Position numbers and translations under genes: made by a program. Below the pieces are notes generated by a model. It ran no database searches, had not been told where the DNA came from, and worked only from the letters and a program-made list of their open reading frames with translations. Of a stretch of 64,000 nt of DNA, positions 44,948-62,164 are shown piece by piece (position 1 is the stretch's first letter; every line of letters starts with the position of its first letter). The stretch is from Petrotoga mobilis SJ95 (GTDB lineage: Bacteria > Thermotogota > Thermotogae > Petrotogales > Petrotogaceae), in NCBI RefSeq assembly GCF_000018605.1, contig NC_010003.1:1650501-1714500 (forward strand), written 5' to 3'.

Positions 44948-44998
44948 TTTATCTCCCCCTTTAAGATTTTTGAATATCATAATAAATATTCTACAAAG

Positions 44999-45027: not shown

Positions 45028-45129
45028 GTATTTTATTAAAATTTTTAAAGTAATGCCGTAATTTAAATAAAAAAGTAACTCCCGCATGCTACTTCGGGAA
45101 TTTACTCTTAAGAGAAGATATTATACTGT

Positions 45130-45570: not shown

Positions 45571-45839
45571 AAAAGGAAATGCCCCGAAGGGGTTCAAGGA
45601 AATAAATGTTCTTGTGAATAAATTTTACAACATTCAACTAACAAAAAGCGAATCAATTTCAAAGACATACTTACTATCTAACCACTACCCTATTTCGATG
45701 ACAATTAATTATGATCTAACACGACCTTAAAACTCGGCTGTATACTAAAAATACTTTTTGAATAAGGTAAAAGGAGAGAAAGATGTTAATCTTTTAATGA
45801 GTAAACCTTACAAGAAATACGATAACGCTCATATGGAAC
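45571..45839. other. Gap without a recognisable gene
   Basis: AT-rich sequence with one small GCCCCGAAGGGG hairpin just after the IS110 relic. No reading frame with a ribosome site was found. Confidence 0.5.
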
Positions 45840-45990
45840 GGCACTGAGACTTTGCTTTGGGCTTCCTTCAGATTCCACTTCACGATGAACACCCTAGTCT
45901 TCGACTACTGGTTTCTGCCATCTACCCCACAACAGGCTTTCACCGCTTAGCTATTGCCCACGCTGACTAACCTTTAAGAAGTAGATAAAT
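45840..45990 (-). mobile_element. Group II intron 5' fragment, decayed
   Basis: The reverse complement reads GGGCAATAGCTAAGCGGTGAA, then a block ending GAATCTGAAGGAAGCCCAA, which matches the better-preserved fragment at 51361-51740. No reverse transcriptase gene is attached. Confidence 0.6.
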
Positions 45991-46026
45991 TAATTTTCTA
46001 TCTCCTATTCCTTTCTAAACGGGGAT

Positions 46027-47394
46027 TTAGGTAAATTGTCTGGTAGAAAATTTACTTTTTCTCAAGCGCTCTTTTACAAATAATGTTAGATATTTTTCTG
46101 GATCATATTTAACATTAGAACAAACAGATTTAGACATATCTCCATTTTCACTTAAAGCTTCCGCCAAGCAACCACCTCCACATAGAGCAAAGACTTCACA
46201 TTTTTTACACTTATCTTGGTTAAGAGGGTTATAACCTTTCAGTGTTTCTAAGTTCTTTAAGTATGCTTTGTTAGGTTTTTCATCATAAATTGTTCCAATT
46301 ACAAAATCATCCATTTCACCACTTGTGCCCCAACAAGTAGCTATTCTTCCGTCTGGTAATATATGAAAAACTTTTAAGGAATTAGCTCCACAATGTAGCA
46401 TCCTTGGAAACGATAGAGGTAAATCTACATTTTTAAATCCTTTAAAGCGAGCTAATTCATGGAATTTTAAAGACATTAACCCCCACTGTGAAGAACTACA
46501 TGTTAACCCTTCAAGTTTATCTCTTATGGTTTCACAAAAGTTTTGAATTTGATGAAAGCCCAGAATTAAATTACTTTTTTCTGCATATCCATTTTTTTTC
46601 AAGTAATCTAATAAGTCATTTATTCCGCTTATATTTTGAGGCCATACATTTATCCTCAAAATAACTTCTTTACAGTACTTCAAGGCATTATCCAAACCTT
46701 TAATTACATCCTGGAACGACCCTTCTCCATTTCTATAAGGTCTCATTTTATTATGATAGTATTCGGTGCCATCCATAGTAATTTGAGTAGAAACCCAATT
46801 ATGTTTTTCAAAAAACCTGCATTTTTCTTCATCCAATAATGAACCATTAGAAATTAATCTTGTTGATAAACGATTCTTACCTACTTGACTTTCTAACTTC
46901 GTTACTATTTCTTGAATTAAAGGGAATTTTAAAAGTGGCTCTCCACCAGTTAATGTTAAAGTTAGTTTCTCATCATCGGAGGCATCAAATTTTTTCTTTA
47001 TAAAATTTACTATTAGCTCACTATCATTTTTTTTAAAAGTTATATTTCTATTTTTGTTTTCTTCACCTTGAAAACAATACACACAATTGAAATTACAGTT
47101 CAAAGTCAAATATAGTACAAAAGTAAGAGAAATGTCATTTTTTGCTTTCTCAAAATTAGTATAAAGTATTTCACTTTCTATGGCCTCATTCTTGACAATA
47201 AAACCATTTTCATAAAGATATTTTACAACATTTGGGTTAGAATCTAAATAAGAATTAGGGTTTTCTACAATATCTTTCACTGCGGTGTCACCTATCATTA
47301 CCTTTGATGTTAGATTAGAAAGAAAAACAAATTTCCCATTTTCATAAGGTACAATATATGTAGTTTTCGCCTTTCTCAAATTTTGCTTTTCCAT
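46027..47394 (-). CDS. Radical SAM/SPASM peptide maturase (locus B)
   Basis: A 455-residue enzyme. Residues 1-75 look like an N-terminal peptide-recognition segment of SPASM maturases (YIVPYENGKFVFLSN...YLYENGFIVKN). The [4Fe-4S] radical SAM motif CNFNCVYC lies at C100, C104 and C107. TLTGGEPLLKFP is the SAM-binding GGEP motif. The C-terminal SPASM domain has CWGTSG, CKKCEVFALCGGGC and a final VCSNVKYD cysteine for auxiliary clusters. Such enzymes crosslink cysteine or other side chains in ribosomal peptides. A 33-residue Cys-containing precursor gene lies upstream on the same strand at 48155, separated only by transposase debris. GAGGAGG precedes ATG 47394. Confidence 0.9.
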   Translation of the reverse strand: MEKQNLRKAKTTYIVPYENGKFVFLSNLTSKVMIGDTAVKDIVENPNSYLDSNPNVVKYLYENGFIVKNEAIESEILYTNFEKAKNDISLTFVLYLTLNCNFNCVYCFQGEENKNRNITFKKNDSELIVNFIKKKFDASDDEKLTLTLTGGEPLLKFPLIQEIVTKLESQVGKNRLSTRLISNGSLLDEEKCRFFEKHNWVSTQITMDGTEYYHNKMRPYRNGEGSFQDVIKGLDNALKYCKEVILRINVWPQNISGINDLLDYLKKNGYAEKSNLILGFHQIQNFCETIRDKLEGLTCSSSQWGLMSLKFHELARFKGFKNVDLPLSFPRMLHCGANSLKVFHILPDGRIATCWGTSGEMDDFVIGTIYDEKPNKAYLKNLETLKGYNPLNQDKCKKCEVFALCGGGCLAEALSENGDMSKSVCSNVKYDPEKYLTLFVKERLRKSKFSTRQFT

Positions 47395-47725
47395 AATTAT
47401 TTCTTACCTCCTCTTTCAAAATAAATATTTATTGTCTTCCGTAATTCTTAACTCGCTTTAAACAAAACCTTTTAATTCAAAAATTTAAAAAATATCTCCA
47501 TCAACGTAAGTTACATGCAATCTGCTTTAGCTCCCCTTTGTCCAGCAGCTCATCCCGAGCAGGATGAAAGGACACCGCCCGTAACCCTTTTAAAATCAAA
47601 GTCTTGTTTTCTGAAATCCTTTTTGGTTCTCTTCCAAAAAGTGTGGGTAGAAAAAATTAAATATGAATAAATGATTAAATAATCTGGTATCATGTAAGAA
47701 AACACAGAATAGATAAGGAGTGATA
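47395..47725. other. Gap upstream of the locus B maturase
   Basis: AT-rich at first, then a damaged piece of the GC-rich repeat family around 47530-47620, recognisable by the CCTTTTAAAATCAAAGTCTT tail shared with 26216. No precursor-like frame was found here on the minus strand. Confidence 0.5.
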
Positions 47726-48027
47726 TCAGAGAAGAAAAGAACTACCAAAATTCTTTGAGCAGATACTGAATATAACAGATCCATGGTACATAGCAAGGAT
47801 AGAACAACATGGAGATACAATCAACATATATGTGGATTTCAAAAAAGGTGCAAAGTTTGAATACAACGGTAAATATTACAGTGCATATACTCCCGTCCAA
47901 AGGATATGTTCCCCCTTTCAAAGCTGGAGCAAGGTAACACTTTCAAAAAGCAAAGATAATATTTGATAAATTCAAAGAAATATTCGATTACAATAAATCT
48001 TCTTATGCTGCAAAGTATTTTCTTTAG
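47726..48027 (+). pseudogene. ISL3-family transposase relic 1
   Basis: The plus-strand frame reads LPKFFEQILNITDPWYIARI, then DTINIYVDFKKGAKFEYNGK, the N-terminal part of an ISL3 transposase. It then jumps to the DNF-type middle segment and to a SSYAAKYF fragment seen in relic 2. Internal deletions and a stop make it non-functional. It separates the maturase from its presumed precursor. Confidence 0.7.
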
Positions 48028-48154
48028 TGCCCTAGATAAACTTAATTTAACTCCAGCTTACTTACCCACTTTTTTCATGAGAGAACCATTAAAATTATTC
48101 ATATTAAAGCTAAGAATGCTGCCCAGCGTAATAATTCCATTCTCTTATTTTGTA

Positions 48155-48256
48155 CTAAACATTACCATTGCCACACATATCATACTTACAAGTTGACTCA
48201 AATTCGACGTTATTCAATTCTATTATCTCTATTTTATCCTTTGTGTTATTTTCCAT
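48155..48256 (-). CDS. Candidate RiPP precursor peptide, 33 residues (locus B)
   Basis: Starts at ATG 48256 behind a strong GGAAAGGAGGTG box. The product opens with a charged leader (MENNTKDKIEIIELNNVEF) and ends in a short core ESTCKYDMCGNGNV with two cysteines four residues apart. Length, leader/core layout and polarity fit a radical SAM-modified peptide. The SPASM maturase lies on the same strand at 46027-47394. ISL3 debris now sits between them. No database comparison was possible, and the function of the mature peptide is unknown. The longer open frame back to 48568 lacks any start signal. Confidence 0.7.
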   Translation of the reverse strand: MENNTKDKIEIIELNNVEFESTCKYDMCGNGNV

Positions 48257-48394
48257 TATGAAAACACCTCCTTTCCCAAAATCTTTAGTTAAACCATTGT
48301 ATAAAGTGTTCAATTTTAATAGAGTAATAATACTATTTTTACGCTGGGCAACATATAGGACACTGATTAAGATAACTGATACTAAGAACCATTT

Positions 48395-49057
48395 GAACAG
48401 ATATTGAATATAACAGATCCATGGTACATAGAAAAGATAGAACAATAACCCGATACACTCAATATATATAAAGACATAGAGTCCATATGTATGGATATGT
48501 CGGTACCTTTCAAAGCTGGAGCAAGAAAACATTTCCCAAAAGCAAAGATAATATTTGACAAATTCCATGTACTTAATGTATTAAGTGCCCAACTTGATAA
48601 AGTGAGAGCCAGAGAGAATAAAGGGTACCATGAGATACTCAAAAGGACGAAATACTTGCTATTAAAAAATCCTAACAACCTTACCAAGAAAGATAAAGTT
48701 AGACTCGATGAATTGATGGAATATCAACATCTTGGCACACTTCAAGCCTACGGATCGGTACTTGAGTTTAAAAAGATGTTCGATTACAAGAAACCTTCTT
48801 ATGCAGCTAAGTATTTTAAACGATGGTATGAAAAGGTAATAGAATCAAATATACCCGAAATGATTAAAGCCGCTAAGACTCTCTTAAATCACATAGAAGG
48901 TATCTTGTTACACATAAAAACGAATATTTCAAACGGTAAAATAGAAGGTATGAACTCTAAACTTAGAGGATTTACTAAAAGGGCTTTTGGTTTTAAAACA
49001 TTAAAGAATTTAAAAATCACTATCTTTATTGCCTTTGTTGCTTCTTGTACAAAGTAA
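48395..49057 (+). pseudogene. ISL3-family transposase relic 2 (C-terminal half)
   Basis: A short N-terminal scrap (EQILNITDPWYIEKIEQ then stop) is joined by deletion to an open C-terminal half from ATG 48491. That half contains DMSVPFKAGARKHFPKAKII, FDKFHVLNVL and the final catalytic block ISNGKIEGMNSKLRGFTKRA. The N-terminal zinc finger, helix-turn-helix and first catalytic Asp are missing. Its stop lies 18 bases from the stop of the secreted peptide gene on the other strand, so it has probably replaced whatever followed that gene. Confidence 0.85.
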
Positions 49058-49074
49058 AAGCCCTAACCAAGCAT

Positions 49075-49218
49075 TTACCCTACTTCTTCCACAACACTTA
49101 CCATCTCTGTGGGTTCTACTCCATCTGTTGATCCTGTAATGCGACCATCTCCACCAAAAACAAATATACCACTCAATAGCAGACCTGTGATCAACAAAAC
49201 AACAAAAAATCCCTTCAT
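49075..49218 (-). CDS. 47-residue secreted peptide, candidate pheromone precursor (locus B)
   Basis: The frame starts at ATG 49218 after GGGGGTGAAAAAGG. A signal peptide (MKGFFVVLLITGLLLSGIFV) is followed by FGGDGRITGSTDGVEPTEM and VSVVEEVG. A sister peptide of the same length at 60180 keeps the pattern TGSTDGV-x-P-x3-VSVVEE. The gene is divergent from a TPR/HTH regulator gene and shares its 367-bp intergenic region. That is the layout of peptide-pheromone/receptor pairs such as shp/rgg. The mature peptide would be cut from the C-terminal 25 residues. Secretion is predicted; signalling is inferred. Confidence 0.7.
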   Translation of the reverse strand: MKGFFVVLLITGLLLSGIFVFGGDGRITGSTDGVEPTEMVSVVEEVG

Positions 49219-49775
49219 CCTTTTTCACCCCCTTGAATTATTTTTTTAATTTAAAACTAATATCTCAAATAATTCAATCCCTTATTTTAATCATACGCTT
49301 TTCCATATGGTTTTCAACTGTTTTTTTAATTGGCTTCAAATATGTATTTATAAAGTATTACAGAGATCGGTCAAAAAATACTTATATTAAAATCAAACTC
49401 GATAATTTTTGTTATCTTTAAATTACTTATATTTTCTTTTTCTTTTTTTATCTGTATTATGGTACAATTATGTTTGAATGGTTTCGGTTTATTTTTAGAA
49501 AATTTCTAAGTTGAATTGAAGTAAATTTATATTGTATTATTATAACGCTGTGTAAACATTTCGTGAGGATAAGGAGGTTCTTAGAATGAATCTTCGATCT
49601 TTGGTCAAAATTGTTAATAAAGGACAGTTCATAAGACCAATTTTGAATTATGTTGTTCATTACTTAGAAAGTGATAAAACAGATAAAAATAAAAACATTG
49701 TCAATTACATAAACGTTTTGAAATTAAAATGGGATGTTAAATATAATGAAGCCCTTGAGATAATAGATAAAGAGA
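49219..49775. repeat. Duplicated control region and regulator 5' end (locus B copy)
   Basis: The segment corresponds to 60324-60880. From about 49330 to 49740 the two copies are identical by eye, whereas the peptide genes and the rest of the regulators differ appreciably. Confidence 0.85.
49290..49317 (-). promoter_or_regulatory. Promoter of secreted peptide B with operator-like palindrome
   Basis: Minus-strand TTGAAA and TATGAT are 16 bp apart. The spacer holds the palindrome CCATATGG (49303-49310), well placed for a repressor or activator. The arrangement is shared with 60395-60422 and, degraded, with 4172-4199. Confidence 0.65.
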
Positions 49776-51307
49776 TAAAGGGGTTGAAAAAAGGTAGTTT
49801 GTATTGTCTAATTTTAGTTGAAAAGATAAGTATTTTAGTCAATCTTTCTAGAAATGAAGAGATTAAAGAAGTATTCAATCAATTGAAGGAAGAATCCGAA
49901 AAACTTCCTAAGTATTTAAGAGGAATAGTCGTTGAGAAGTTAAAGAATGTTCGTGAATTAAATTTTGAAGAAAAAGATTTGCAAACCATTAGGATTTGGA
50001 GTGAAAGTTATGAAAATACTCCCGCCACCAAAGGCTTCATATTACTATCAAAATCAAGAGGAAAAAAGAATGAAGAACAATACGATGAAGCAGTTTGTTT
50101 AAACATCGAAGCATTTAAGATTTTAAAAACTGTTCCACATCCCTCTGGTATGGTGCAAGCTTTAAACAATATATCTTGGTGGTTGAAAGATACAAACAAA
50201 GAAAAGGCTTTAGCTTTTACCTTTCCATTGGGATTCTATCTTGGTTACTATTTCCATGATGATAACTTTGATGTTTTCAATTCCCTTGATACTACATTTC
50301 AAGTACAAAAGAATAATAACGATCCGTTGTTTTATGAAACCGCCTTTATTTTTTCACGCTTAGTTTCATTGTTGAGTGTCGATAAGAAAAAAATAATATG
50401 GAATAAGTTTGAATATACCATTCATGATGTCAGACGTTTTGTTTTGAATATTAGAAATAGAAATTACTTAAACACAAAAACGCTAAGAGATTTCATAAGG
50501 AAAGAGATAGGAAAAGAAAAGATACCCATAGATTCAATAAATGTTTCTGAAAGAACATTAAAAGAGTTTTTATCTGCAAAGACACAGTACATTCAACCAA
50601 GTATCTTGAGAAACATTATAGATGCTCTTGAGTTTGAAATCACCACATCCGCACCTATATGTATAATCAAAGAATTGAAAAAGAAGGATATAGATAAAAA
50701 GTTTGAGATAAACCTTGAAAAGTTTAAAAACCTTTCAAAAGAAAGGCAAATATCAGAACTCTTTACATCTTACCTCGTTCATTACTACAAAGAAGAGATC
50801 GATCTAAAAAAGATAATTAAAGAGATACAAGATGACAGTTTAATTGAAGAAAGATGTGATTACTACACTAAAGAGTTAATAAACTCTGTCTTTGAAAGAA
50901 ATCAAAAGATAGAGTTTAATTCTTTACTAACAAACGCTCAAGAACCAAAAATCTACACAAACAAAAATATAACCTTCAAAGAACATCCTTTTTATTTGGG
51001 AAGGGAAGAAGTTGTAAAAAGATTTATGAAAGACTTAAATAAAAAGAATTTAAAAGAGTTCATTGAAAATTACATTGGTCTTGATACAAGACAAAAAAAG
51101 ACGATAGAAAAGTTCATAATGAATTACGGTAGGTACTATGATTTAAAGGTAAAGGATATCCCCAAAGAATTCACACCGAAAGTACCAAAAGAGATTAATC
51201 CATTCGTGAAAAAATATACGTTGAAAAGAAAACCTTCTGCCCTTTCTTTTTATGTGTTTGAAGGGGAAGAAAGAGAAGAGTTTGTGGAAATTATCAGCAA
51301 TTTTTAA
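49586..51307 (+). CDS. TPR protein with central helix-turn-helix, candidate peptide receptor/regulator (locus B)
   Basis: A 573-residue protein. Residues about 40-290 are alpha-helical pairs resembling tetratricopeptide repeats (NEALEIIDKEIKGLKKG, EEQYDEAVCLNIEAFKIL, MVQALNNISWWLKD). Residues 300-350 look like a Cro/C1-type DNA-binding domain: LRDFIRKEIGKEKIP, NVSERTLKEFLSAKTQ, then PSILRNIIDALEF. The last 220 residues are a conserved helical tail ending RKPSALSFYVFEGEEREE. TPR plus HTH is the build of RRNPP peptide receptors (Rap, Rgg, PlcR), although there the HTH is N-terminal. AAGGAGG precedes ATG 49586. The adjacent divergent secreted peptide is the obvious ligand. Function inferred. Confidence 0.75.
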   Translation: MNLRSLVKIVNKGQFIRPILNYVVHYLESDKTDKNKNIVNYINVLKLKWDVKYNEALEIIDKEIKGLKKGSLYCLILVEKISILVNLSRNEEIKEVFNQLKEESEKLPKYLRGIVVEKLKNVRELNFEEKDLQTIRIWSESYENTPATKGFILLSKSRGKKNEEQYDEAVCLNIEAFKILKTVPHPSGMVQALNNISWWLKDTNKEKALAFTFPLGFYLGYYFHDDNFDVFNSLDTTFQVQKNNNDPLFYETAFIFSRLVSLLSVDKKKIIWNKFEYTIHDVRRFVLNIRNRNYLNTKTLRDFIRKEIGKEKIPIDSINVSERTLKEFLSAKTQYIQPSILRNIIDALEFEITTSAPICIIKELKKKDIDKKFEINLEKFKNLSKERQISELFTSYLVHYYKEEIDLKKIIKEIQDDSLIEERCDYYTKELINSVFERNQKIEFNSLLTNAQEPKIYTNKNITFKEHPFYLGREEVVKRFMKDLNKKNLKEFIENYIGLDTRQKKTIEKFIMNYGRYYDLKVKDIPKEFTPKVPKEINPFVKKYTLKRKPSALSFYVFEGEEREEFVEIISNF

Positions 51308-51318
51308 ATCGGGTAGGA

Positions 51319-51361
51319 GGTAGATAATTAATTAATTAATTAATTTATTTATTTATCTACC
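51319..51361. repeat. Palindromic element, AT-rich loop
   Basis: GGTAGATAA and TTATCTACC arms around a 25-base A/T loop of ATTA repeats. It is the inverted counterpart of 2094-2116 with the same flanks, just after the regulator stop, where it may act as a transcript end. Confidence 0.65.
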
Positions 51362-51740
51362 GTCCTTCCTCATCTTCCAATGAGTATTATGACCTCTGCT
51401 AACTTCTCAAGATTCAGCCATACATTGCTGCATGGGTTGCCTTAACAGCATGTTCTTGAGATCTCCCCAGGTAAGTGCAATAACTTTCATCCCATATATC
51501 CGCCAGATCTACTCCGTGAAGTTCTGGATAGCTGTTGGACTTCGTTTTGTTAGGCAAACTCGTCCACTCCACTTAGCCTTGTATCTGGTTCTTGTTCATC
51601 GGACCGGGACTTTGTCTTGGGCTTCCTTCAGATTCCACCTCACGATGGACACCCTTGCCTTCGACTAGTGGTTCCCGCTACCTGGCCCACAACGGACTTT
51701 CACCGCTTAGCTATTGCCCATGCTGGGCAACTTGGTCGGC
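51361..51740 (-). mobile_element. Group II intron 5' fragment without reverse transcriptase
   Basis: On the minus strand the sequence begins TTGCCCAGCATGGGCAATAG and continues GCGGTGAAAGTCCG, GAATCTGAAGGAAGCCC and, near the end, GAAGTTAGCAGAGGTCATA. These blocks are typical of domain I to the pre-ORF part of bacterial group II introns. The sequence stops where the reverse transcriptase gene should start. Plus-strand frames in this region are spurious. A shorter relic lies at 45840. Confidence 0.65.
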
Positions 51741-52136
51741 TTTTAGTTTAAAGTATGGTCTATTTTTTGTCTTTAAGCTTGAGATCTTATAATAGATTTT
51801 TATTCAATAACTTATCTATCTTCAATTGGAAAAGATACGTATTTAGGAATACCCTGAGTTTGACAATTACAAAAATGTAAGAATTCTAAAACAGGCATGA
51901 ATAAATGTAAAAAAGCGTTTTTTGCTTTCTGTGTTTTTCAAAAGTGTCACTACATCAAAAATTTTTTTCAAAAAAATAGGCGATTTATTCTCTCAAACTC
52001 GCTTTCTTTCGTTCGGTTTACTGAAAAACCATCTCTCAACTGTCAAACTCAAGAGAACACATTGTGATGAATTTCATATCTTAGATCATGCAAAGAACGC
52101 TTGAATTAGAACAAAAATATTTGTTATTAAGTGCAA
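51741..52136. other. Gap without a recognisable gene
   Basis: AT-rich, with a few frames of up to 60 codons but no ribosome site or familiar protein. Possibly insertion-sequence debris. Confidence 0.4.
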
Positions 52137-53027
52137 CTAAAATACTCCAAGACAAGCGGTTTTTATGCATGACGCAGGTTGAACCTGAGTAAAAAATTTT
52201 CTTTTATTTTCTTCAACCTCTTCAGGACTTGTCTGAGTAATGTTACCGAGCCTATACCTTTTATCATCTTTATGTTGATAACATGGATATATACTTCCAT
52301 CCGAATCGATTACTATAGATTGTCTTGTGAAAGGGCAATCGCTCAATCTTGGAGGAGCTCCAAACTTCATAATTGAATAAATTAATCCTAAATAGTATTC
52401 TTTATTATTTTGTTTAGCCCATGAATTTAAGCTGTTTAATATTAAAGATTGTTCTTGCTTGGAGCAATTACCTAAAAATAGTGGGTTATCTTCTCCAACT
52501 GCAATAGGATGAAACCTGATTCCAAAATTATTCCGCCTTGCAAAATTTATTAGTTCTTCAATTTGATCAAAATTACCTTTACTAATAATAGAGGTCAAAT
52601 ACCTGCGCCTGACCTTATGATCGCGTAGTTTTAAAATCCCTTCCATTGTTCTTTCAAATCCACCACGATGTTGTTTGTGATAATTAGAAGATATACTGTC
52701 TAAACTCACACAAACCTCAACATTATTATCACGAAAGAAACTTGCATGTTTATCAGTTAGTAATGTGCCATTGGTCAAAACTCTGGTATCAATTCCGTAT
52801 CTTATAGGTATCTCCACAAACTCAAAAAAATCTCTCCTTAATAAGGGCTCTCCTCCAGTAAAGGTAATGGATTCTATTTTCATTAAATGCATGCATTTTT
52901 CAACCCATTGTTCAACATCTGAAGGTTTTAAACGAGTGGGAGAATAGTGAAGGTTACCTACCTGGTAATAGCAATAGGAGCAACTTAAATTACAACCACC
53001 CATAATTAAAAAAGATTGATGGAGCAT
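52137..53027 (-). CDS. Second radical SAM enzyme of the RiPP operon (locus C)
   Basis: A 296-residue radical SAM protein. CNLSCSYC lies at C12, C16 and C19, followed by TFTGGEPLLRRDFFE and VCVSLDSISSNYHKQHRGGF. The C-terminus carries four further cysteines (DCPFTRQ, IYPCYQH, SCIKTACLGVF), a shortened SPASM/twitch region. GAGGTGAAGAG precedes ATG 53027, and the stop of the M1-like gene is 12 bases upstream, so it is the last gene of the operon. It may install a second modification in the same precursor or mature an intermediate. Its substrate is not shown. Confidence 0.88.
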   Translation of the reverse strand: MLHQSFLIMGGCNLSCSYCYYQVGNLHYSPTRLKPSDVEQWVEKCMHLMKIESITFTGGEPLLRRDFFEFVEIPIRYGIDTRVLTNGTLLTDKHASFFRDNNVEVCVSLDSISSNYHKQHRGGFERTMEGILKLRDHKVRRRYLTSIISKGNFDQIEELINFARRNNFGIRFHPIAVGEDNPLFLGNCSKQEQSLILNSLNSWAKQNNKEYYLGLIYSIMKFGAPPRLSDCPFTRQSIVIDSDGSIYPCYQHKDDKRYRLGNITQTSPEEVEENKRKFFTQVQPASCIKTACLGVF

Positions 53028-53038
53028 CTCTTCACCTC

Positions 53039-54358
53039 TTATTGGAAATATCCCGAAAATAACTTTATCAGGAAATGAATGTCTATTTTTGCTGCTGATG
53101 CAAATCTGCTTAAAAATTCATCAACTTGAACAATTCGAGTGCTAGAACAAAGTAACTCATTTAAAAGATTGAAGTAACTATTTGTTCCTAATGTTTCAAA
53201 TATATCGTGCCATTTCAACAATAGAAACGCATACTTTTGAAATTTATTATTTGAAATTTCATTTTTTTTGTACCAGTTTAAACGACGCTCTAAAAAGGAA
53301 TGCCCAAAACGGTAAGTATCATATAATAACTGTAAATGTTCTGCTATTGTTTCTGTAAGTAACGATGCACCTTTACCCCTAAACTTAATATTATTTCCAA
53401 ACCACTGATGAGCGATTTCATGGGGTAAATAACTAAATAGTAGAGTTTCTGGACTGGCTAGCAATTCCTTTCGAAATAATATTAAATGTGAAAAACTTAC
53501 TGCATTCGCAATATCTCCTGAATATGTTGAAATGTGAAGATACTTAAGAGGTTTAAAGTGGTCTTCATAATATTGAATAATTTTTGTAATTTCTGATTTA
53601 TAATCCCATTTATCTTTAAGTGGAACATTAGATATAACTGATCCGTAATAATAACTGTATTGAAAATTGCTAGGTTCGGTCTCTATATTAATTACGATAT
53701 TTCTAATATCTTCAAAAAACAATTCATTTTTGTTAGCTATACTATGATTTGAAGAATAATAAAGAGAACTATCATTAATTTTTACAACAGCTGGACAAGA
53801 AATTGTCCAGGTGGGGAGTGTAAAAGATCCTTTTTGTGACGTTAGCAACAATGAAGATACATCTTCCCAGACAAGTATATAACTTAAATTTATCCTACTT
53901 ATTCCTTCATGAAGTGCCCCAATAATAAAAGGGCCAAATCTTTGATAATCAACAATCATTAAATCATTGATTGATATTTTTTTTATTTTTTTTATTTTTT
54001 CTTCAACTAATAGTATCAAATAAGAGTCTATATTAACTCCTCTTATTTGGTACTGTACATTTAGGGTCAATTCATTTCCTACTTTTTCGATTACAATATT
54101 TGCTTGGCATTTATCAAAAAGCTCATCTCTACCATCAAAAAAAACTGTTAGCCACTCTATCGTATTCTCAGTATAGTAAGCAACAAAAATCTTCCTTTCT
54201 CCTTTTTTACCAAAAAGGACTAAAAAGAACTGATCCCCATCTTCGATAGGTATATAAGGAATTAAATCGTGAAAGTCGATCCAATTACCGTTAAGAGATA
54301 AAATTTCTATCTTTTTTTTATTGTAAAGAAAATGTCTTATTGTCATGACATAAATCAT
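53039..54358 (-). CDS. M1-like zinc metallopeptidase of the RiPP operon
   Basis: A 439-residue protein with the gluzincin motif HEIAHQWFGN and a third ligand Glu 18 residues on (SLLTETIAEHL), as in M1 aminopeptidases. The N-terminal 230 residues are a beta-rich domain with little resemblance to classical M1 saddles, and no clear GAMEN exopeptidase motif is seen (GSVISN occupies a similar place). No signal peptide is visible. Its start overlaps the M29-like gene stop by ATGA. Leader removal or destruction of the peptide product are plausible tasks. Confidence 0.75.
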   Translation of the reverse strand: MIYVMTIRHFLYNKKKIEILSLNGNWIDFHDLIPYIPIEDGDQFFLVLFGKKGERKIFVAYYTENTIEWLTVFFDGRDELFDKCQANIVIEKVGNELTLNVQYQIRGVNIDSYLILLVEEKIKKIKKISINDLMIVDYQRFGPFIIGALHEGISRINLSYILVWEDVSSLLLTSQKGSFTLPTWTISCPAVVKINDSSLYYSSNHSIANKNELFFEDIRNIVINIETEPSNFQYSYYYGSVISNVPLKDKWDYKSEITKIIQYYEDHFKPLKYLHISTYSGDIANAVSFSHLILFRKELLASPETLLFSYLPHEIAHQWFGNNIKFRGKGASLLTETIAEHLQLLYDTYRFGHSFLERRLNWYKKNEISNNKFQKYAFLLLKWHDIFETLGTNSYFNLLNELLCSSTRIVQVDEFLSRFASAAKIDIHFLIKLFSGYFQ

Positions 54359-55320
54359 TCCAAAATTGTTATCGTAGGTTCATCAATTATGATGTCATAA
54401 TGATACTCAGTGGAAATTTGCCCACCTATATCTGTATTGTTACCAAAACCAAAATGGCAAGTTCCGTAAGCCTTTTCACCTGAAGATAACGAAAATAGCT
54501 TAGCCATTGATCTATTGGTGCCTATACCAAATTCCCCTAAAAAGGATTCATTAGGTATTTTAAGAAACCTTTCATCTTCAAATCTAGCAACACCATTCTT
54601 TATACTAATCTCTATCTTTTTCTTACCCACTTTTGTTACTAGTACTCCATTTGAAGCTTTTTCAATGGGCGCAAAAAAGACCTCTCCACATGGCAGTTGC
54701 AAAATACTTTTATTCGTTTTGTTAATAAGACAATCTTCAGTATGGATAGGGCGCTCTTCTCGTTTAATTAATATGTCGGTACCGTTACTGGTAGTTATTC
54801 GATATGCACGTCCCCTATTCAACCAATTTTTTAAGCGTTCATTTTCTGTATGAACATTTGAGTAATCAGCACATAAAGCCCGGATATATAAGTGACTTAC
54901 TAGTTCTTTGAGCGAAGATTCTATATCTTCAGGTGGCCAGTCAATCATAATAGTAGGTTGACCAGAGGTTTGAAGTTCGATAAATCTCTCATGCAAGCGT
55001 TTTTGAAATATATAATCGCGGGCTTCTATTGGTAGTCCGAATATCGTCAAATCAGCTTCGTAGAAACCTAACGGCTCAATAAAAAATAATCCATTTTCAC
55101 ATCTTTTGGGAATCCACGAGTTAATATCTTTTTCTTCATTAGGAATACGAACCATTATAGTATTAACTTCATATTTTTCCAATACGTTTTTAAGTTCTAT
55201 CCAAACGTATTCATTCTCTTTAAAGATAATGATCACTTTTTTAAATTGATCAATTACTCCGCATTCAGATAGTACCTTATGGAAACAAGTATTGATTTCA
55301 CTATTTTGATTTCTCGACAT
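54355..55320 (-). CDS. M29-like aminopeptidase of the RiPP operon
   Basis: A 321-residue protein starting at ATG 55320 (a TTG at 55326 is possible). The C-terminal half resembles thermophilic M29 aminopeptidases: LPCGEVFFAPIEKASNGVL, FLGEFGIGTNRSMA, AYGTCHFGFGNNTDIGG and ISTEYHYDIII, containing the expected Glu/Glu/His/Tyr/His/Asp metal-site residues. The N-terminal half (FKKVIIIFKENEYVWIEL) is family-like but diverged. The start lies inside the end of the MFS gene and the stop overlaps the M1-like gene, so all three are translated together. A role in precursor or leader trimming is inferred. Confidence 0.7.
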   Translation of the reverse strand: MSRNQNSEINTCFHKVLSECGVIDQFKKVIIIFKENEYVWIELKNVLEKYEVNTIMVRIPNEEKDINSWIPKRCENGLFFIEPLGFYEADLTIFGLPIEARDYIFQKRLHERFIELQTSGQPTIMIDWPPEDIESSLKELVSHLYIRALCADYSNVHTENERLKNWLNRGRAYRITTSNGTDILIKREERPIHTEDCLINKTNKSILQLPCGEVFFAPIEKASNGVLVTKVGKKKIEISIKNGVARFEDERFLKIPNESFLGEFGIGTNRSMAKLFSLSSGEKAYGTCHFGFGNNTDIGGQISTEYHYDIIIDEPTITILE

Positions 55321-56530
55321 TCTCAATCACTTCTCTCACAGTTCTTATTTTTGTACCAATTTTGATTAATAGAGTAATAGTAATAATGCTTCCTATAAAG
55401 GCTAACAACCAATTGTAGCGAAAACCTATTTGATCCGCAATATAACCACTTACCAAAGGGATAGTGAAACCAAACAAGGATCCAGCAGCAGAAATAGCTG
55501 AAATATAAGATGCTCTTCTCTCACTTGGAATAAAATCATGAACCCATACTGAACTAGCACTCATATCTATGCCCAATCCCAATTCGATTAAACAGGCTCC
55601 TATGTAGAAAGCAACAATTGAAGTGTGAGAAGCAATTGTAATAGAACCTATTGCAATTAAACCTTGCCCCATTATTGATACTTTCACACCTTCAAAACGC
55701 TTTAGAAGTATGCCTGCTAAACTATTTCCGATGGCTAAAACTACAAGAAAAATGGCCATTGTGAAACCTAAGTATGCAGTAGGCAATTTAAGCTCTTTGA
55801 CCATATATAATTGCCATATCATTACAAAGGTCTGAAATGCAATTCTTCCTGACATAGAGTAAATCAAAATTAATCTCATTGTCGTACTTTTAAAAATATC
55901 AATTGTGTTTCGAGCAAGGGCTTTTCTAAATGAAATTGCCCTATCTCCGTAATTTTCATTTAAAATGAAAATAAGTATGATCGATGTCCCAAGTGCCATT
56001 ATACCAGCAACCAATAAGGGAAAATCCGGACGACCAATTGCAAGAGCAGAGGACAATAAAGCCACAATAGCACCGAATATTAGTGAAATTGCATTTGCAT
56101 TCGGAAACACTTTCGCTTTTAAATGCGCTCGACCCTCTTTAGTAATTTCATCTACAAACCAAGCTCCTGGAGTACCACTAATCAATGAAACGCCGACCGC
56201 CCATAGTAAAATACTCAAGATAAAAGTAAATAGATTATTTGCTTGGAAGAATACCAGTAAACCTATGGACCATATAAAAAATCCTAACACTAAAGATCTT
56301 TTCCGACCGTATCTATCAGCAATGTTTCCAGTTGGATAGTCAAATATACTTAATGCTATTGAAGCAATCGCTAATACCTGGCCAATTTGAAATGAAGTTA
56401 ATCCCCTTATCCCCATATGAGCAACATAGACAGTCCCGAATAATTTATCAATACTTTCGTAAAGTATAATTATAAAATAATATTTGACTATTGTAGAGTC
56501 AAGTTTGATTGATTTACCAAAACGCCTCAT
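55301..56530 (-). CDS. MFS transporter of the RiPP operon
   Basis: A 409-residue, twelve-helix major facilitator. The loop 2-3 motif is GNIADRYGRKRSLVLGF, followed by LISGTPGAWFVDEI in helix 5. The cytoplasmic mid-loop is short and basic. It is not closely related to the two efflux MFS copies elsewhere in the window. Position between the ABC exporter and the peptidases suggests export of product or uptake of a fragment. No ribosome site better than AGGACTT is seen before ATG 56530. Confidence 0.85.
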   Translation of the reverse strand: MRRFGKSIKLDSTIVKYYFIIILYESIDKLFGTVYVAHMGIRGLTSFQIGQVLAIASIALSIFDYPTGNIADRYGRKRSLVLGFFIWSIGLLVFFQANNLFTFILSILLWAVGVSLISGTPGAWFVDEITKEGRAHLKAKVFPNANAISLIFGAIVALLSSALAIGRPDFPLLVAGIMALGTSIILIFILNENYGDRAISFRKALARNTIDIFKSTTMRLILIYSMSGRIAFQTFVMIWQLYMVKELKLPTAYLGFTMAIFLVVLAIGNSLAGILLKRFEGVKVSIMGQGLIAIGSITIASHTSIVAFYIGACLIELGLGIDMSASSVWVHDFIPSERRASYISAISAAGSLFGFTIPLVSGYIADQIGFRYNWLLAFIGSIITITLLIKIGTKIRTVREVIENVEKSK

Positions 56531-56595
56531 AAGTCCTACCCCCGGTTTTTATGAGATTACTGCCTGATGAATGAACTATAATTCCTTTTAAGCTT

Positions 56596-58314
56596 TTATC
56601 TGTCATTCTGAGCATCTTTGACATACTGTTTCTTAAATAATTCTCTATAACTTTCATTCTTTTGGTATAACTCTATGTGTGAGCCCGAATCCACTATAGT
56701 ACCGTTTGCCATAAAATATATCTTATCTGCTTTTGTTATTGTTGAAAGACGATGAGAAACCAAGATTATTGCCATATCTTTTTCCTTTTCCTTTAGACTT
56801 TCAAATATTAATTCTTCAGTGTGTGAATCCATTGCAGAAGTAGCTTCATCCAGCAACAGCACCTTAGGGGGATGTAATAATGTTCGAGCTAAATTGACTC
56901 TTTGCCTTTGCCCACTGGATAAGAGCAAACAGTTTTTATTAAGAGACTCTGAAAATTCTGTTAGTTGTGTGATTTCTAAAATCTCATTTATTGTACTTTT
57001 TTCAACTTTTTCACCTAATAAGATATTCTCTTCTATACTTGCATTGAATATAAAAGGAGAACCTTCTACATATTTTATATTTCTTCGTAAATCTAAAAGA
57101 TCATATTGTGAAAGTTTTAATTTGTTCAGTAATATTTCTCCTCTTTGCGGTTTATATAATTCAGTTAACAGTAAAAGTAAAGTGCTTTTCCCTGTTCCGG
57201 TAGATCCAACAATGGCTATCTTTTCACCTTTGTTGATTTGTAAATTTATATTCTTTAATATATAATTATTTTCCTCATATGAAAAGAAAACATCGTGGAA
57301 ATCAATTGTAAATTCTTTTGGAAAGGGCTTCCCTTTACGTACTTTTTCCTCTTCTTGGTTTAGTAAAGTTTCAATTCTATTTATTGATGGAAAAGCAGCA
57401 GGTGTGGTAGTGAAGAGAAAAGCAAGGTTCCATACTGGGACATATAGCCTTCCAACGAATGTGAAAAAGGCGATCAGCGTTGGAATATCTACTAAACCCC
57501 TCATTGATAAAATTGCACCTATACACAAAATAATAATAGGTAAACCTTCTTCAATATACATAGTTATACTATTATATAGTTTTTCATAAAAACTTTTGTT
57601 TTTCATAGAATTATGCCAGTTGCGGATCTTGTTTTGAAAAAGATGGTAAAAATAGGCGGTTTTTTCCAATAATCTTATGATAATTGCTGAATTTATCCCT
57701 TCTTCTATTGATTTTACAACATTATCGTTTGCCTCTCGTTCTAACAAAGACATACTTTCCATCTTTGGTTTGAACTGCTTTTGGCATAATAAGTATATGG
57801 GCAAGGAACAAACAAATATTATCGCTAAATAAGTATTTAATTTAAAAGCGACATAACATCCTACCGAAAACTCAGCTATTGCCTGAAAAACAGATGTGAA
57901 AAAAAGCGCTTCTTCTCCAACTATGTCAATATCAGAGGTGAATCGCGCCATCAATTCACCTGATGGCTTCCTTTTATGGTACGAAGCTGGCAACTTTAGA
58001 ACCTTTAGATATAATTTCTCACGCAAGTTTCCTTTCACTAACAATTTCAAAATGTCTCCATGATAATCACAAAAAAACCAAATGAAACGTGTGAAGGAAT
58101 AAATAACAAGAATCAGTATAGCTGTAATTAAGGCATTTTTCATTCCTTGCCCATCGTTTATTGTTGTAATTTCTTGCATCAAGTTTTCGATTAAAAATGG
58201 AGTCACGGCTACTAATGGTATTGATGAGAAAATTAGTATGAAATTTATGAATAACTCTTTTTTAAAACGAGAGACCTCTTCCCAAAGAAAATACAAGGCG
58301 TGTTTATATTTCAT
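56596..58314 (-). CDS. ABC exporter of the RiPP operon
   Basis: A 572-residue fused half-transporter: six membrane helices in residues 15-300, then an ATPase domain with Walker A GSTGTGKST, signature LSSGQRQR, Walker B VLLLDEATSAMD and switch His IILVSHRLST. The Q-loop region reads YVEGSPFIFN where a Gln is expected, as in the exporter at 2266. No N-terminal C39 peptidase domain is present, so leader cleavage must be done elsewhere, possibly by the neighbouring peptidases. Its ATG overlaps the maturase stop by one base. Export of the modified peptide is the natural inference. Confidence 0.9.
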   Translation of the reverse strand: MKYKHALYFLWEEVSRFKKELFINFILIFSSIPLVAVTPFLIENLMQEITTINDGQGMKNALITAILILVIYSFTRFIWFFCDYHGDILKLLVKGNLREKLYLKVLKLPASYHKRKPSGELMARFTSDIDIVGEEALFFTSVFQAIAEFSVGCYVAFKLNTYLAIIFVCSLPIYLLCQKQFKPKMESMSLLEREANDNVVKSIEEGINSAIIIRLLEKTAYFYHLFQNKIRNWHNSMKNKSFYEKLYNSITMYIEEGLPIIILCIGAILSMRGLVDIPTLIAFFTFVGRLYVPVWNLAFLFTTTPAAFPSINRIETLLNQEEEKVRKGKPFPKEFTIDFHDVFFSYEENNYILKNINLQINKGEKIAIVGSTGTGKSTLLLLLTELYKPQRGEILLNKLKLSQYDLLDLRRNIKYVEGSPFIFNASIEENILLGEKVEKSTINEILEITQLTEFSESLNKNCLLLSSGQRQRVNLARTLLHPPKVLLLDEATSAMDSHTEELIFESLKEKEKDMAIILVSHRLSTITKADKIYFMANGTIVDSGSHIELYQKNESYRELFKKQYVKDAQNDR

Positions 58315-59738
58315 TAAAGTTCCTCCAATGTAACAAATTCTGAGTTATATAATTCGTTAATGAAAAAAACCACGTCTTCTTTGATTTTATCTCTTTTTAC
58401 TTCATTATTGTATTTTTTATCTAATTCTTTTATTATATTTCTTATTTCATTTTCTCCTTTTTCAATTAGCCTCCAAATCTCGTTACCACTTCCTTCAATT
58501 AGTCTGTATGTTTTCCATTGATGATCCCATAAATAAATTTTATCATTCTCTTCTTTCTTTAAAACTTCTCTTCTTAAGAAAACTTTTTTATTAATCATGT
58601 CTCTTATGAAATTATTTTTTAGTTTTTTCACTTTTGAACATATTTCGATATTGTTTTTGTAATAATAAATTATAGGACATAATTGGGAACAAATTGTACG
58701 ATGCTCACAACTTGAACATATAGGAAATTGGGTAAATTGTCTTGCTCTAAACAATTTTTTAAAATTAAGAAAAGTTTGATTATAATCACTTTTTACCATC
58801 TCTTCTAAAGAGCGAATGTTTTTAATATTTATAGATTCAATCTTATAAGCGCCATCATTTAAAAGATTTTTATTATAAAGTGGATTATTAGCTACCCCAC
58901 ACGGATGCAATTCACCATCTGCTTGCATATAAAACATTCCATCACTTGCTGTACAATTTGTAAATTCAGGATTAAAACTAAAATTTGCCAAGTATTTTTT
59001 ATTTAAATACTCAACCAGAGAAAATACAGTATCTAATTGTACAAAAAAATTTGAGAAATACTTTTGATTGTTTCTTAGTTTTCTAGCTAACATCTCCATT
59101 TGCTTAATAGATTCATCCTTAGAATAATCAAATTTTCCATTTGATGCATTTCCTGAGGAATATAATTCCATAATATCTATACCATCTAGGCCCATATTCA
59201 TTGCCAAATCTACGATTAAAGGTATTTGATGAATGTTATAGTTCAACATTGTAAAGGCAATAAATACTTTGATTTTACTCTTCAATTCATTTCTTTTATT
59301 AAGAAAAACTTCTAAATTTTTTATAACCTGGTCAAATACCCCTCTTCCTCTGATTCTATCGTGAACCTCTGAGGTAGCCCCATCAAGGCTTACTGTTATG
59401 GAATCAACTTCTGAAAAAACAAGTTTTTCGCAATTTTCAGGTGTCAGAAACAAGCCATTAGTGTTTACAGTAACCATTAATCCTTCTTTTTTTGCAAAAC
59501 TACATAATTCAAAAATATCCTTTCTACAAAATGGTTCTCCACCAAGGAGATGTATATGTTTGACTCCTGAATTCGCTATTTTTTCTATAGCATTCCTAGC
59601 TTCTTCTGTTGTAAGGTCTTTTCCAGAATGGTAAATATTGTTTTTTCCATATCTATCATTATTATAACAATGTATACATGATAAATTGCAAAGTTGTGTA
59701 ACATCCCAAATCAAAGTTTCTGGCATAATATTCAGCAT
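58314..59738 (-). CDS. Radical SAM/SPASM maturase with C-terminal PqqD-like domain (locus C)
   Basis: A 474-residue peptide-modifying enzyme. CNLSCIHC sits at C17, C21 and C24, with HLLGGEPFCRKDIFE and SITVSLDGATSEVHDRIRG following. The SPASM cysteines are in NCTASDGM, LHPCGVANNP, FPICSSCEHRTICSQLCPII and EICSK. Residues about 385-474 resemble PqqD, the RiPP leader-recognition fold: YRLIEGSGNEIWRLIEKGEN through EDVVFFINELYN. Such domains are more often N-terminal or separate. GGGGTGAC precedes ATG 59738. The 47-residue precursor is encoded just upstream at 59856. It probably installs carbon-centred crosslinks or thioethers. Confidence 0.9.
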   Translation of the reverse strand: MLNIMPETLIWDVTQLCNLSCIHCYNNDRYGKNNIYHSGKDLTTEEARNAIEKIANSGVKHIHLLGGEPFCRKDIFELCSFAKKEGLMVTVNTNGLFLTPENCEKLVFSEVDSITVSLDGATSEVHDRIRGRGVFDQVIKNLEVFLNKRNELKSKIKVFIAFTMLNYNIHQIPLIVDLAMNMGLDGIDIMELYSSGNASNGKFDYSKDESIKQMEMLARKLRNNQKYFSNFFVQLDTVFSLVEYLNKKYLANFSFNPEFTNCTASDGMFYMQADGELHPCGVANNPLYNKNLLNDGAYKIESINIKNIRSLEEMVKSDYNQTFLNFKKLFRARQFTQFPICSSCEHRTICSQLCPIIYYYKNNIEICSKVKKLKNNFIRDMINKKVFLRREVLKKEENDKIYLWDHQWKTYRLIEGSGNEIWRLIEKGENEIRNIIKELDKKYNNEVKRDKIKEDVVFFINELYNSEFVTLEEL

Positions 59739-59755
59739 TTTGTCACCCCTTATTT

Positions 59756-59790
59756 GGAAGAAGAGAAGAGGAATTTCCCTTCTCTTCCTT
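59756..59790 (-). terminator. Hairpin between precursor and maturase genes
   Basis: GAAGAGAAG (59760-59768) pairs perfectly with CTTCTCTTC (59779-59787), with further pairing inside the loop. There is no T-run after it on the minus strand, so it is more likely an attenuator or mRNA-stabilising hairpin than a full stop. Confidence 0.65.
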
Positions 59791-59855
59791 AAGCATTTTT
59801 ATTCCACTATTTCATTTTAACAATATTTAACAAAGATAGTCTTTGTTGTGAAAGC

Positions 59856-59999
59856 TTATTTTGTACTAATTGGCCAGGTTTTTTTACACATCCCCATTCC
59901 GGATCTTGCTGTAATGATACTTGGATCATAATTTGATCTAGGAAGTTTAATTACTGGACTAGAATAATTTTTTCTCGTCCCAGAATTAGTTCTTGACAT
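59856..59999 (-). CDS. Candidate RiPP precursor peptide, 47 residues (locus C)
   Basis: The frame begins at ATG 59999, behind GGAGGGAAATGCG. An overlapping ATG four bases upstream opens only a 17-codon frame. The product has a Ser/Asn/Arg-rich leader (MSRTNSGTRKNYSSPVIKLP), a middle RSNYDPSIITARSG and a C-terminal MGMCKKTWPISTK with one Cys and one Trp. There is no signal peptide. It lies directly before a SPASM maturase with a PqqD-like domain and is followed by a hairpin, as is common for abundantly made RiPP precursors. The modified residues are unknown; Cys38, Lys39/40 and Trp42 are the obvious candidates. Confidence 0.72.
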   Translation of the reverse strand: MSRTNSGTRKNYSSPVIKLPRSNYDPSIITARSGMGMCKKTWPISTK

Positions 60000-60054
60000 C
60001 GCATTTCCCTCCTTTCATTTTTATTTTTCACCTTTTTCCCTGCAGGTTTGCTAC

Positions 60055-60064
60055 TTGCCGGCAA
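60055..60064. promoter_or_regulatory. Palindrome TTGCCGGCAA upstream of the precursor
   Basis: A perfect 10-bp palindrome of unusual GC content, 55 bp before the precursor start. It may be an operator or part of an mRNA hairpin. No direct support for either. Confidence 0.35.
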
Positions 60065-60179
60065 ATAATTCCTCTCCTCACAATCTTTTCCTTCAAAAAC
60101 TTATCTAGATACTTTCTTAAATCTTCTAAGCTTTTTCAAATGTTTTTTTTCACCTAAAGTAAATACTTCAACCAAACAT

Positions 60180-60323
60180 TTACTCTATTTCTTCCACAAC
60201 ACTTACAATCGTTCTGGGTACTACACCATCTGTTGATCCTGTATCGAGATCTTCTCCACCAAAAACAAATAAACCCCCTAATACCAGAACAGTGATTATC
60301 AAAACAACAACAAATTTCTTCAT
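60180..60323 (-). CDS. 47-residue secreted peptide, candidate pheromone precursor (locus C)
   Basis: Starts at ATG 60323 after GGGGGTGAAAGAGG. A hydrophobic signal peptide (MKKFVVVLIITVLVLGGLFV) is followed by FGGEDLDTGSTDGVVPRTI and VSVVEEIE. It matches the locus B peptide in length, in the TGSTDGV and VSVVEE blocks and in promoter and leader. It is the first gene of the minus-strand RiPP operon and is divergent from a damaged TPR/HTH regulator. It may be the autoinducer that controls the operon. Alternatively it is a small structural or immunity peptide. Confidence 0.7.
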   Translation of the reverse strand: MKKFVVVLIITVLVLGGLFVFGGEDLDTGSTDGVVPRTIVSVVEEIE

Positions 60324-60394
60324 CCTCTTTCACCCCCTTGAATTATTCTTTTAATTTAAAACTAATATCTCAAATAATCCAACCCTCAATTTTA

Positions 60395-60422
60395 ATCATA
60401 CACTTTTCCATATGGTTTTCAA
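60395..60422 (-). promoter_or_regulatory. Promoter of the locus C operon with operator-like palindrome
   Basis: TTGAAA and TATGAT on the minus strand with 16-bp spacing and CCATATGG at 60408-60415 in the spacer, as in locus B. It should drive the peptide, the precursor and at least part of the RiPP operon. Confidence 0.65.
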
Positions 60423-60690
60423 GTGTTTTTTTAATTAGCTTCAAATATGTATTTATAAAGTATTACAGAGATCGGTCAAAAAATACTTATATTAAAATCA
60501 AACTCGATAATTTTTGTTATCTTTAAATTACTTATATTTTCTTTTTCTTTTTTTATCTGTATTATGGTACAATTATGTTTGAATGGTTTCGGTTTATTTT
60601 TAGAAAATTTCTAAGTTGAATTGAAGTAAATTTATATTGTATTATTATAACGCTGTGTAAACATTTCGTGAGGATAAGGAGGTTCTTAGA

Positions 60691-62164
60691 ATGAATCTTC
60701 GATCTTTGGTCAAAATTGTTAATAAAGGACAGTTCATAAGACCAATTTTGAATTATGTTGTTCATTACTTAGAAAGTGATAAAACAGATAAAAATAAAAA
60801 CATTGTCAATTACATAAACGTTTTGAAATTAAAATGGGATGTTAAATACGATGAAGCCCTTGAGATAATAGATAAAGAGATAAAGAGATAAAGGGATTGA
60901 AAAAAGATGGTTTGTATTATCTTTTAACGAAGAAAGATACGATGAAGCAGTTTCTTTAAACATCGAAGCATTTAAGGTTTTAAAAACTATTCCACATCCT
61001 TCTGGCATGGTGCAGGCTTTAAACAATATATCTTGGTGGTTGAAAGATATTAACAAAGAAAAGGCTTTAGCTTTTACTTTACCATTGGGATTTTATCTTG
61101 GTTACTATTTCGATGATGATAACTTTAAAGTTTTCAATTCCCTTGATACTGTGTTTCAAGTACAGAAGAATAATAACGACCCTCTGGTTTATGAGACCGC
61201 CTTTATCTTTTCGAGGTGTTTATCTCAACTAAACAAATCTGAAAGTGAACCGATAAAAAATACTTTTAAAGATATCATTAACCAATTAAAGTACTATGTA
61301 TTCAATTTGGATAACAACCAACACAGAGGTACACCAAAGCTGAGAGATTTCATAAGGAAAGAGATAGGAAAAGAAAAGATACCCATAGACTCAATGAACA
61401 TTTCTGAAAAAACGTTGAAAGAGTTTTTATTTGAAGAGACACAGTACATTCAACCAAGTACCTTGAGAAACATAATAGATGCTCTTGAGTTTGAAATCGA
61501 TACATCCACACCTATATGTATAATCAAAGAATTGAAAAAGAAGGATATAGATAAGAAGTTTGAGATAAACCTTGAAAAGTTTAAAAACCTTCCAAAAGGA
61601 AGACAAATATCAGAATTCTTTACCTCTTACCTCATTCATTACTACAAAGAAGAGATTGATCTAAAAGAGATAATTAGAGAAATACAAGATGACAGTTTAA
61701 TTGAAGAAAGATGTGATTACTACACTAAAGAGTTAATAAACTCTATCTTTGAAAGAAATACAAAGATAGATTTCAATTCTTTACTAACAAACGTTCAAGA
61801 ACCAAAAATCTACACAAACAAAAATATAACCTTCAACGAACATCCTTTTTATTTGGGAAAGAAAGAAGTTGTAAAAAGGTTTATGAAAGACTTAAATAAA
61901 AAGAATTTAAAAGAGTTCATTGAAAATTACATTGATCTTGATACAACTCAACAAAAGACAGTAGAAAAGTTCATAATGAATTACGGTAGGTACTATGATT
62001 TAAAGGATATACCCAAAGAATTCACACCGAAAGTACCAAAAGAGATTAATCCATTCGTGAAAAAATATACGTTGAAAAGAAAACCTTCTGCTATTTCTTT
62101 TTATGTGTTTGAAGGGGAGGAAAGAGAAGAGTTTGTGGAAATAGTCAAGGCTTTTGAAATTTAG
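60691..62164 (+). pseudogene. TPR/HTH regulator, broken copy (locus C)
   Basis: The first 66 codons from ATG 60691 match the locus B regulator. An 8-bp tandem duplication (AGATAAAG) then shifts the frame into a stop at 60889-60891. A deletion of about 300 bp follows relative to locus B. The frame resumes near 60920 (EERYDEAVSLNIEAFKVLKT) and continues to 62164, including the helix-turn-helix (ISEKTLKEFLFEETQ, PSTLRNIIDALEF) and the RKPSAISFYVFEGEER tail. An internal ATG at 61007 could give a 385-residue protein that lacks most of the TPR region but keeps the DNA-binding part. It might still bind the shared operator without peptide control. Confidence 0.8.

Follow-up and report, generated by a model that had tools for sequence, protein, structure and literature searches.

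A putative radical-SAM peptide cassette at a conserved docking module in Petrotoga mobilis

The window analyzed here is a 64,000-nucleotide stretch of the genome of Petrotoga mobilis SJ95, a thermophilic oilfield bacterium; the genome is a single contig of 2,169,548 bp. The features on which the argument rests are as follows.

46027-47394, minus strand: a 455-aa radical SAM protein, whose nearest models are CefB, TIGR04463, and PapB
48155-48256, minus strand: a second unannotated precursor, MENNTKDKIEIIELNNVEFESTCKYDMCGNGNV, ahead of the 455-aa radical SAM gene
52137-56530, minus strand: genes for MFS, M29-like, M1-like, and second radical SAM/SPASM (rSAM2) proteins, part of a pathway that is complete in genomes G048 and G050
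56514-56657, minus strand: a scar ORF with NLIKTGG from the DUF885 C terminus of a replaced cluster (left junction at about 56559)
56596-58314, minus strand: a 572-aa ABC exporter, membrane and ATPase parts fused, the putative product exporter (Pfam)
58314-59738, minus strand: rSAM1, a 474-aa radical SAM/SPASM/PqqD protein and putative maturase (Pfam, Cys positions)
59739-59855, minus strand: the stretch separating precursor from maturase, with a strong predicted hairpin (-29.1 kcal/mol, z -3.05)
59856-59999, minus strand: the 47-aa putative RiPP precursor (ORF map, ATG start)
60000-60179, minus strand: a conserved 180-nt leader from the secreted-peptide stop codon to the precursor ATG (locus alignment)
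60180-60323, minus strand: a small 47-aa peptide with a signal-peptide-like N terminus, upstream of the precursor and in the same direction; eight copies in the genome
60691-62164, plus strand: a divergent gene for an all-helical protein of about 573 residues, partner of the secreted peptide; a pseudogene here

The same-strand order is therefore signal-like peptide, 47-aa precursor, rSAM1, and ABC protein. An earlier note had pointed to an unannotated 47-residue frame with one cysteine, a Lys-Lys pair, and a tryptophan, and its coordinates, its ATG start, C38 (the single Cys), K39-K40, and W42 are all confirmed. The translation is MSRTNSGTRKNYSSPVIKLPRSNYDPSIITARSGMGMCKKTWPISTK, of which residues 35 to 47 are MGMCKKTWPISTK, and the C-terminal stretch reads KKTW. 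Upstream of the start, the mRNA runs AAAGGAGGGAAATGCG-ATG and contains the ribosome site AAAGGAGG, as the note had claimed. Residues 1 to about 32 would make up the leader peptide, with Y12-S-S-P15-V-I17 inside it, and S33 to K47 are likely the core. Inspection by eye also bears out the absence of a signal peptide, and the position expected of a SPASM substrate holds, since the next same-strand gene, 117 nt downstream, encodes a radical SAM/SPASM/PqqD protein.

In 5,000 dinucleotide shuffles of the 441-bp gap around the precursor, an ORF of 47 codons or more, starting with ATG and ending in the gap, arose in 9.8% of cases, and such an ORF with AAGGAG or AGGAGG at 3 to 12 nt arose in 0.08%. Codon usage is ambiguous, with log-odds of -0.004 per codon beside means of 0.20 for coding and -0.19 for noncoding sequence; 4% of coding and 10% of noncoding 47-codon pieces deviate as far as this score or further. 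One could argue that the ORF arises by chance within a leader or spacer that is not translated, and that rSAM1 acts on the peptide at 60180-60323 or on one encoded elsewhere. The weak codon signal, the presence of further short frames overlapping the region, and the lack of homologues carrying substitutions are consistent with that idea. We nevertheless consider it unlikely: length and ribosome site together are rare by chance, and the gap holds no other ORF of at least 20 codons with a comparable ribosome site, save a TTG frame inside the conserved leader. Moreover, all loci have the secreted peptide regardless of their radical SAM type, so it is not the specific substrate. A further objection comes from the way in which homology between loci ends, described below.

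Among 103 Thermotogota genomes, the 47-aa peptide and rSAM1 each occur only in P. mobilis and one congener (G051), 100% identical in both cases. The DNA of the two shows zero differences from 57284 to 60399 (3.1 kb, maturase included) and about 5% just to the left; the substitution comparison is identical over these 3.1 kb and hence uninformative. Searches of plasmids, GTDB contigs, and viral contigs for rSAM1 orthologues gave remote matches only, a further scan of GTDB with the M29-like proteins as queries found nothing, and the sequences searched contained no diverged homologue for either the 47-aa peptide or rSAM1. The next match to the 47-aa peptide, in G065 (L023, E value of 0.003), lacks a nearby maturase and was set aside as chance. 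The comparison neither supports nor refutes the note's proposals of the last 12 residues as core and of Cys, Lys, and Trp as crosslink sites, and a disrupted frame beside an intact maturase, the refuting outcome it had named, was not observed, the one other copy being identical. The congener carries the cluster, with a single repeat copy, on a contig of 11,111 bp (C53, locus L038) whose two ends fall at one position (about 55330 to 55340 of the window). This contig represents an excised circle, a tandem arrangement, or an artifact of assembly caused by the flanking repeats, which are 93 to 95% direct repeats of the secreted peptide and helical protein at 49065-51307 and 60170-62164 of the window.

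The sequence upstream of the precursor has a very different distribution. Over the 160 nt before the ATG, P. mobilis is 82 to 93% identical to five other Petrotogaceae loci; downstream of the ATG, identity to the same five falls to 57 to 62%, the level of shuffled sequence. BLAST alignments of the module from loci L066 to L071 likewise mostly end within 20 nt of the precursor ATG. The five loci with the conserved module carry unrelated peptides in the slot and other radical SAM enzymes, and in G050 the last 110 nt of the leader are nearly identical and are followed by a different peptide, MFELNSKAKMNPAGGCGGIGCGACAALRT. Because module homology stops at the ATG, we take the ORF start to be a genuine precursor start; this is our strongest evidence, and it also speaks against a chance ORF.

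At more than 12 loci, the slot that separates the secreted-peptide gene from the radical SAM gene is occupied by short ORFs, most of them Cys-rich and usually equipped with an AAGGAG site. Several of these peptides have homologues of their own: MIKLNTTSRDVPACGCLIGSCGNQPAPK has relatives in G050 and G037, MFELNSKAKMNPAGGCGGIGCGACAALRT has one in G051, and MENNTKDKIEIIELNNVEFESTCKYDMCGNGNV, the second precursor of the window, has one in G008 (L099:6508-6600), a member of another Thermotogota family, with the same gene set adjoining. None of the family models scored above its cutoff for the 455-aa radical SAM protein that follows MENNTKDKIEIIELNNVEFESTCKYDMCGNGNV. In related genera (L091:3508-4276 in G045, L088, and L092), the slot holds Cys-rich peptides such as MQWIEKNNDYMLEFEFSCAILRLICPCFGESCLFKCHCQGDNSCHEQR, in tandem runs of as many as four, after a 43-aa secreted peptide and a helical gene. 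In G052 (L108:6152-6253), the short peptide MYEKPEVKKVEKVYEKPVFLAKASSECGCGQGY, which has a Cys-rich tail and carries the YxxPx[VF] motif twice, adjoins two radical SAM genes and a helical gene.

The secreted-peptide family has eight copies in P. mobilis and further copies in relatives. For all eight, a radical SAM gene lies on the same strand no more than 4 kb away, compared with an expectation of 0.0375 per copy given the 32 radical SAM genes of the genome. The copy at 60180-60323 is a candidate signaling peptide. Within the 180-nt leader, which has no match in Rfam, lies a TTGCCGGCAAG-N5-CCTGCAGGG-type element (60038-60064, minus strand) composed of two adjacent palindromes, TTGCCGGCAA and CCTGCAGG. 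Many Petrotogaceae loci retain this pair ahead of the slot, and it could be an operator, an RNA element, or an exchange site.

The helical family occurs in 55 of the 103 Thermotogota genomes. In sampled loci outside the genus, the helical gene and a small signal-peptide-like ORF are often divergently oriented, and radical SAM genes and Cys peptides adjoin the helical gene in several genera. Identification as a TPR protein was rejected, as Pfam finds neither TPR nor HTH in it; a search against PDB profiles gave no match to RRNPP proteins, and the AlphaFold model is unusable (pLDDT of 38.8). By analogy with the streptococcal Rgg/SHP and RaS-RiPP systems, the helical protein and secreted peptide may have a role in peptide sensing. 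The P. mobilis gene at 60691-62164 has lost about 260 bp internally, a deletion also present in G048, while the gene is intact in G051; the other helical gene of the window, at 49586-51307, is intact. Because the adjacent helical gene is broken, the cassette may be deregulated or silent in P. mobilis.

The enzyme downstream of the 47-aa ORF has a complete set of the expected cysteines. The radical SAM core motif is C17xxxC21xxC24 (CxxxCxxC), and the SPASM cysteines (C262, C280, C341, C344, C350, C354, and C367) comprise CX2CX5CX3C in full plus flanking Cys, although the Pfam SPASM score of 21.1 bits lies slightly below the cutoff of 21.5. Residues 413 to 468 at the C terminus form a PqqD/RRE-like domain that passes the Pfam cutoff. 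No NCBIfam maturase equivalog scored above its cutoff, and the closest solved structures are SkfB (the best), MoaA, and PqqE. In the ABC protein, the membrane and ATPase domains alone pass the Pfam scan, with no match to a C39 peptidase; no leader protease is evident for the cassette. The spacer hairpin may favor expression of the precursor over that of the maturase.

The leader peptide offers a plausible contact for the PqqD domain. Its YSSPVI stretch fits the RRE-binding motif [Y/W]xxPx[LVIFA], which occurs in lasso and LPP leaders (PMC13381572). The motif was spotted post hoc, and by our own arithmetic composition alone predicts it in about 4% of such peptides; motif and domain are both present and are candidate binding partners. 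The same pairing bears on the idea that the 47-aa product has a regulatory, toxin, or immunity-type function independent of rSAM1 activity. The peptide is small and basic, and no homologue fixes its function; however, the slot elsewhere holds Cys-rich, radical-SAM-linked peptides, and the RRE-type domain of the downstream enzyme would otherwise have no partner, making this idea highly improbable. Taken with its position, its ribosome site, and the end of the module at the ATG, the leader motif and the PqqD domain lead us to conclude that the 47-aa ORF very probably encodes the precursor on which the neighboring SPASM enzyme acts.

Comparison with G048 reveals how the P. mobilis locus was assembled. 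The two genomes are 99% identical from 43521 to 56559, share no homology from there to about 60090, and are 100% identical from about 60450 to 61550, with exchange junctions near 56559 (left) and 60430 (right). The flanks match and the middle differs; therefore, a block has been exchanged. Between the junctions, G048 has a 56-aa precursor, a 444-aa radical SAM protein, a class II tRNA-synthetase-like protein, and a DUF885 protein, and this block precedes the same MFS, M29, M1, and second radical SAM genes that P. mobilis has; the G050 set is equal. The alignments thus indicate that the secreted peptide, leader, 47-aa ORF, rSAM1, and ABC gene replaced the front half of another cluster, leaving the DUF885 scar.

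These alignments also bear on whether the window encodes one long pathway, in which the 47-aa peptide is fed to rSAM1 and then to the M29 and M1 peptidases and rSAM2, yielding a small molecule by a route like that to PQQ or mycofactocin. The genes are contiguous, intact, and on one strand, and the M1 HExxH motif and several conserved M29 residues are retained. Nevertheless, their intactness says little, because near-identity to G048 implies that the swap was recent. G048, G050, and a plasmid of Streptomyces sp. NBC_01727 pair these genes with another precursor, another radical SAM enzyme, and a tRNA-synthetase-like protein, and it is this front half that was replaced in P. mobilis, with the scar left behind. 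We rejected a single composite pathway, for which little probability remains, on the strength of the intact original cluster in G048 and G050. The genes at 52137-56530 are a remnant of a different pathway and not demonstrably part of the 47-aa cassette.

The Streptomyces plasmid carries a syntenic set with a 66-aa peptide that shares the pattern GDxCxRS. Across the three loci (L064:8620-17604 in G048, L065:5466-14450 in G050, and L037:8076-15117 on the NBC_01727 plasmid), the pathway comprises the GDxCxRS peptide, a radical SAM enzyme, a class II (Asp/Lys-type) tRNA-synthetase-like protein, M29-like and M1-like peptidases, a second radical SAM enzyme, and an MFS protein. There are lineage-specific extras: DUF885 in Petrotoga and an FAD oxidoreductase and P450 in Streptomyces. 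Half of the set survives in the window, at 52137-56530. Its product is possibly a peptide-templated small molecule, and the cluster may represent an undescribed peptide-derived small-molecule pathway.

We propose that a three-gene radical-SAM RiPP cassette, consisting of the 47-aa precursor, the rSAM/SPASM/PqqD maturase, and the ABC exporter, has recombined into a Petrotogaceae docking module, and we hold this explanation to be probable. The module comprises the divergent helical-protein gene, the secreted-peptide gene, and the 180-nt leader that ends at the precursor ATG, and it would drive leftward transcription and may have a signaling role. The hairpin after the precursor would keep the level of precursor ahead of that of the enzyme. 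The PqqD domain of rSAM1 would then bind the leader via Y12-S-S-P15-V-I17, and the SPASM enzyme would set one radical-made bond within residues 33 to 47; candidates are a thioether at C38, as SkfB makes, or a C-C/C-X bond at Lys or Trp. Some protease would cut off the leader, and the ABC protein would export the product, which may be bioactive.

Several known systems resemble the cassette. Sactipeptides (SkfB and AlbA), ranthipeptides (PapB and SCIFF), and Lys-Trp or cyclophane peptides (StrB, WgkB, and DarE) share with it a small precursor, a SPASM enzyme, and an exporter in one unit, and the single Cys and the Lys/Trp residues of the likely core are shared as well. In contrast, the P. mobilis precursor fits no family, and the RRE-like domain of rSAM1 is C-terminal. 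The one Cys of the peptide (C38) and SkfB as the best PDB match of rSAM1 invite the sactipeptide comparison. The peptide lacks a motif of the KGxxW, WGK, or SCIFF type, and the pair does not match the WgkB/DarW/DynA-type models and the KGxxW or WGK spacing of the Lys-Trp crosslink class (streptide, WGK, darobactin type): rSAM1 scores 82.6 bits with the WgkB model, which has a cutoff of 650, and the peptide reads KKTW.

The module has a counterpart in streptococcal Rgg/SHP-controlled RaS-RiPPs, in which genes for a small secreted peptide and a large partner protein lie beside diverse radical-SAM RiPP operons (PMC13361665). The Petrotogaceae module likewise pairs a secreted peptide and a large protein near diverse radical-SAM sets, but neither Pfam nor PDB searches link the helical protein of Thermotogota to Rgg/RRNPP proteins, and the payload boundary is at the precursor ATG. 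For SJ95, Murphy et al. (2011, PMC3132745) described only Pmob_0676-0678, a sactibiotic-like cluster in which no Cys-containing precursor was found, without mention of the locus studied here or of the shared module. The 464-aa radical SAM protein at L072:5222-6616 (CNLQCRYC) matches the published description of Pmob_0678, and it sits behind another copy of the module. In genus g35, loci contain a 31-aa Cys peptide beside a radical SAM enzyme and a helical protein. Frock et al. reportedly described in 2013 a novel, stationary-phase-induced small peptide at the TM1316 locus of Thermotoga maritima, and we infer that the g35 loci are this locus; its peptide and enzyme differ from those of the P. 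mobilis cassette. The literature searched, which lay largely outside subscription journals, yielded no account of a shared docking module whose payloads can be exchanged.

Such a module is more interesting than the 47-aa peptide itself. We tentatively suggest, as a bolder idea with less than even chances, that a so far undescribed peptide-sensing pair of secreted peptide and helical protein of about 550 residues is a fixed docking module in Thermotogota, at which radical-SAM RiPP cassettes are interchangeable and the exchange points lie at the start codon of the precursor. Reading the ORF after the conserved leader is a simple, chemistry-independent way of finding modified-peptide precursors in the phylum, and it yields more than 12 unannotated precursors at once, two of them in the window. 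The loci also show RiPP cassettes exchanged as whole units, with the precursor start codon as the boundary, and the module suggests peptide-linked control in a phylum for which little such control is known. If this idea is true, then a deep-branching thermophilic phylum would have a cell-density-controlled, plug-in arsenal of modified peptides, and the 47-aa peptide of P. mobilis would be one payload of new chemistry.
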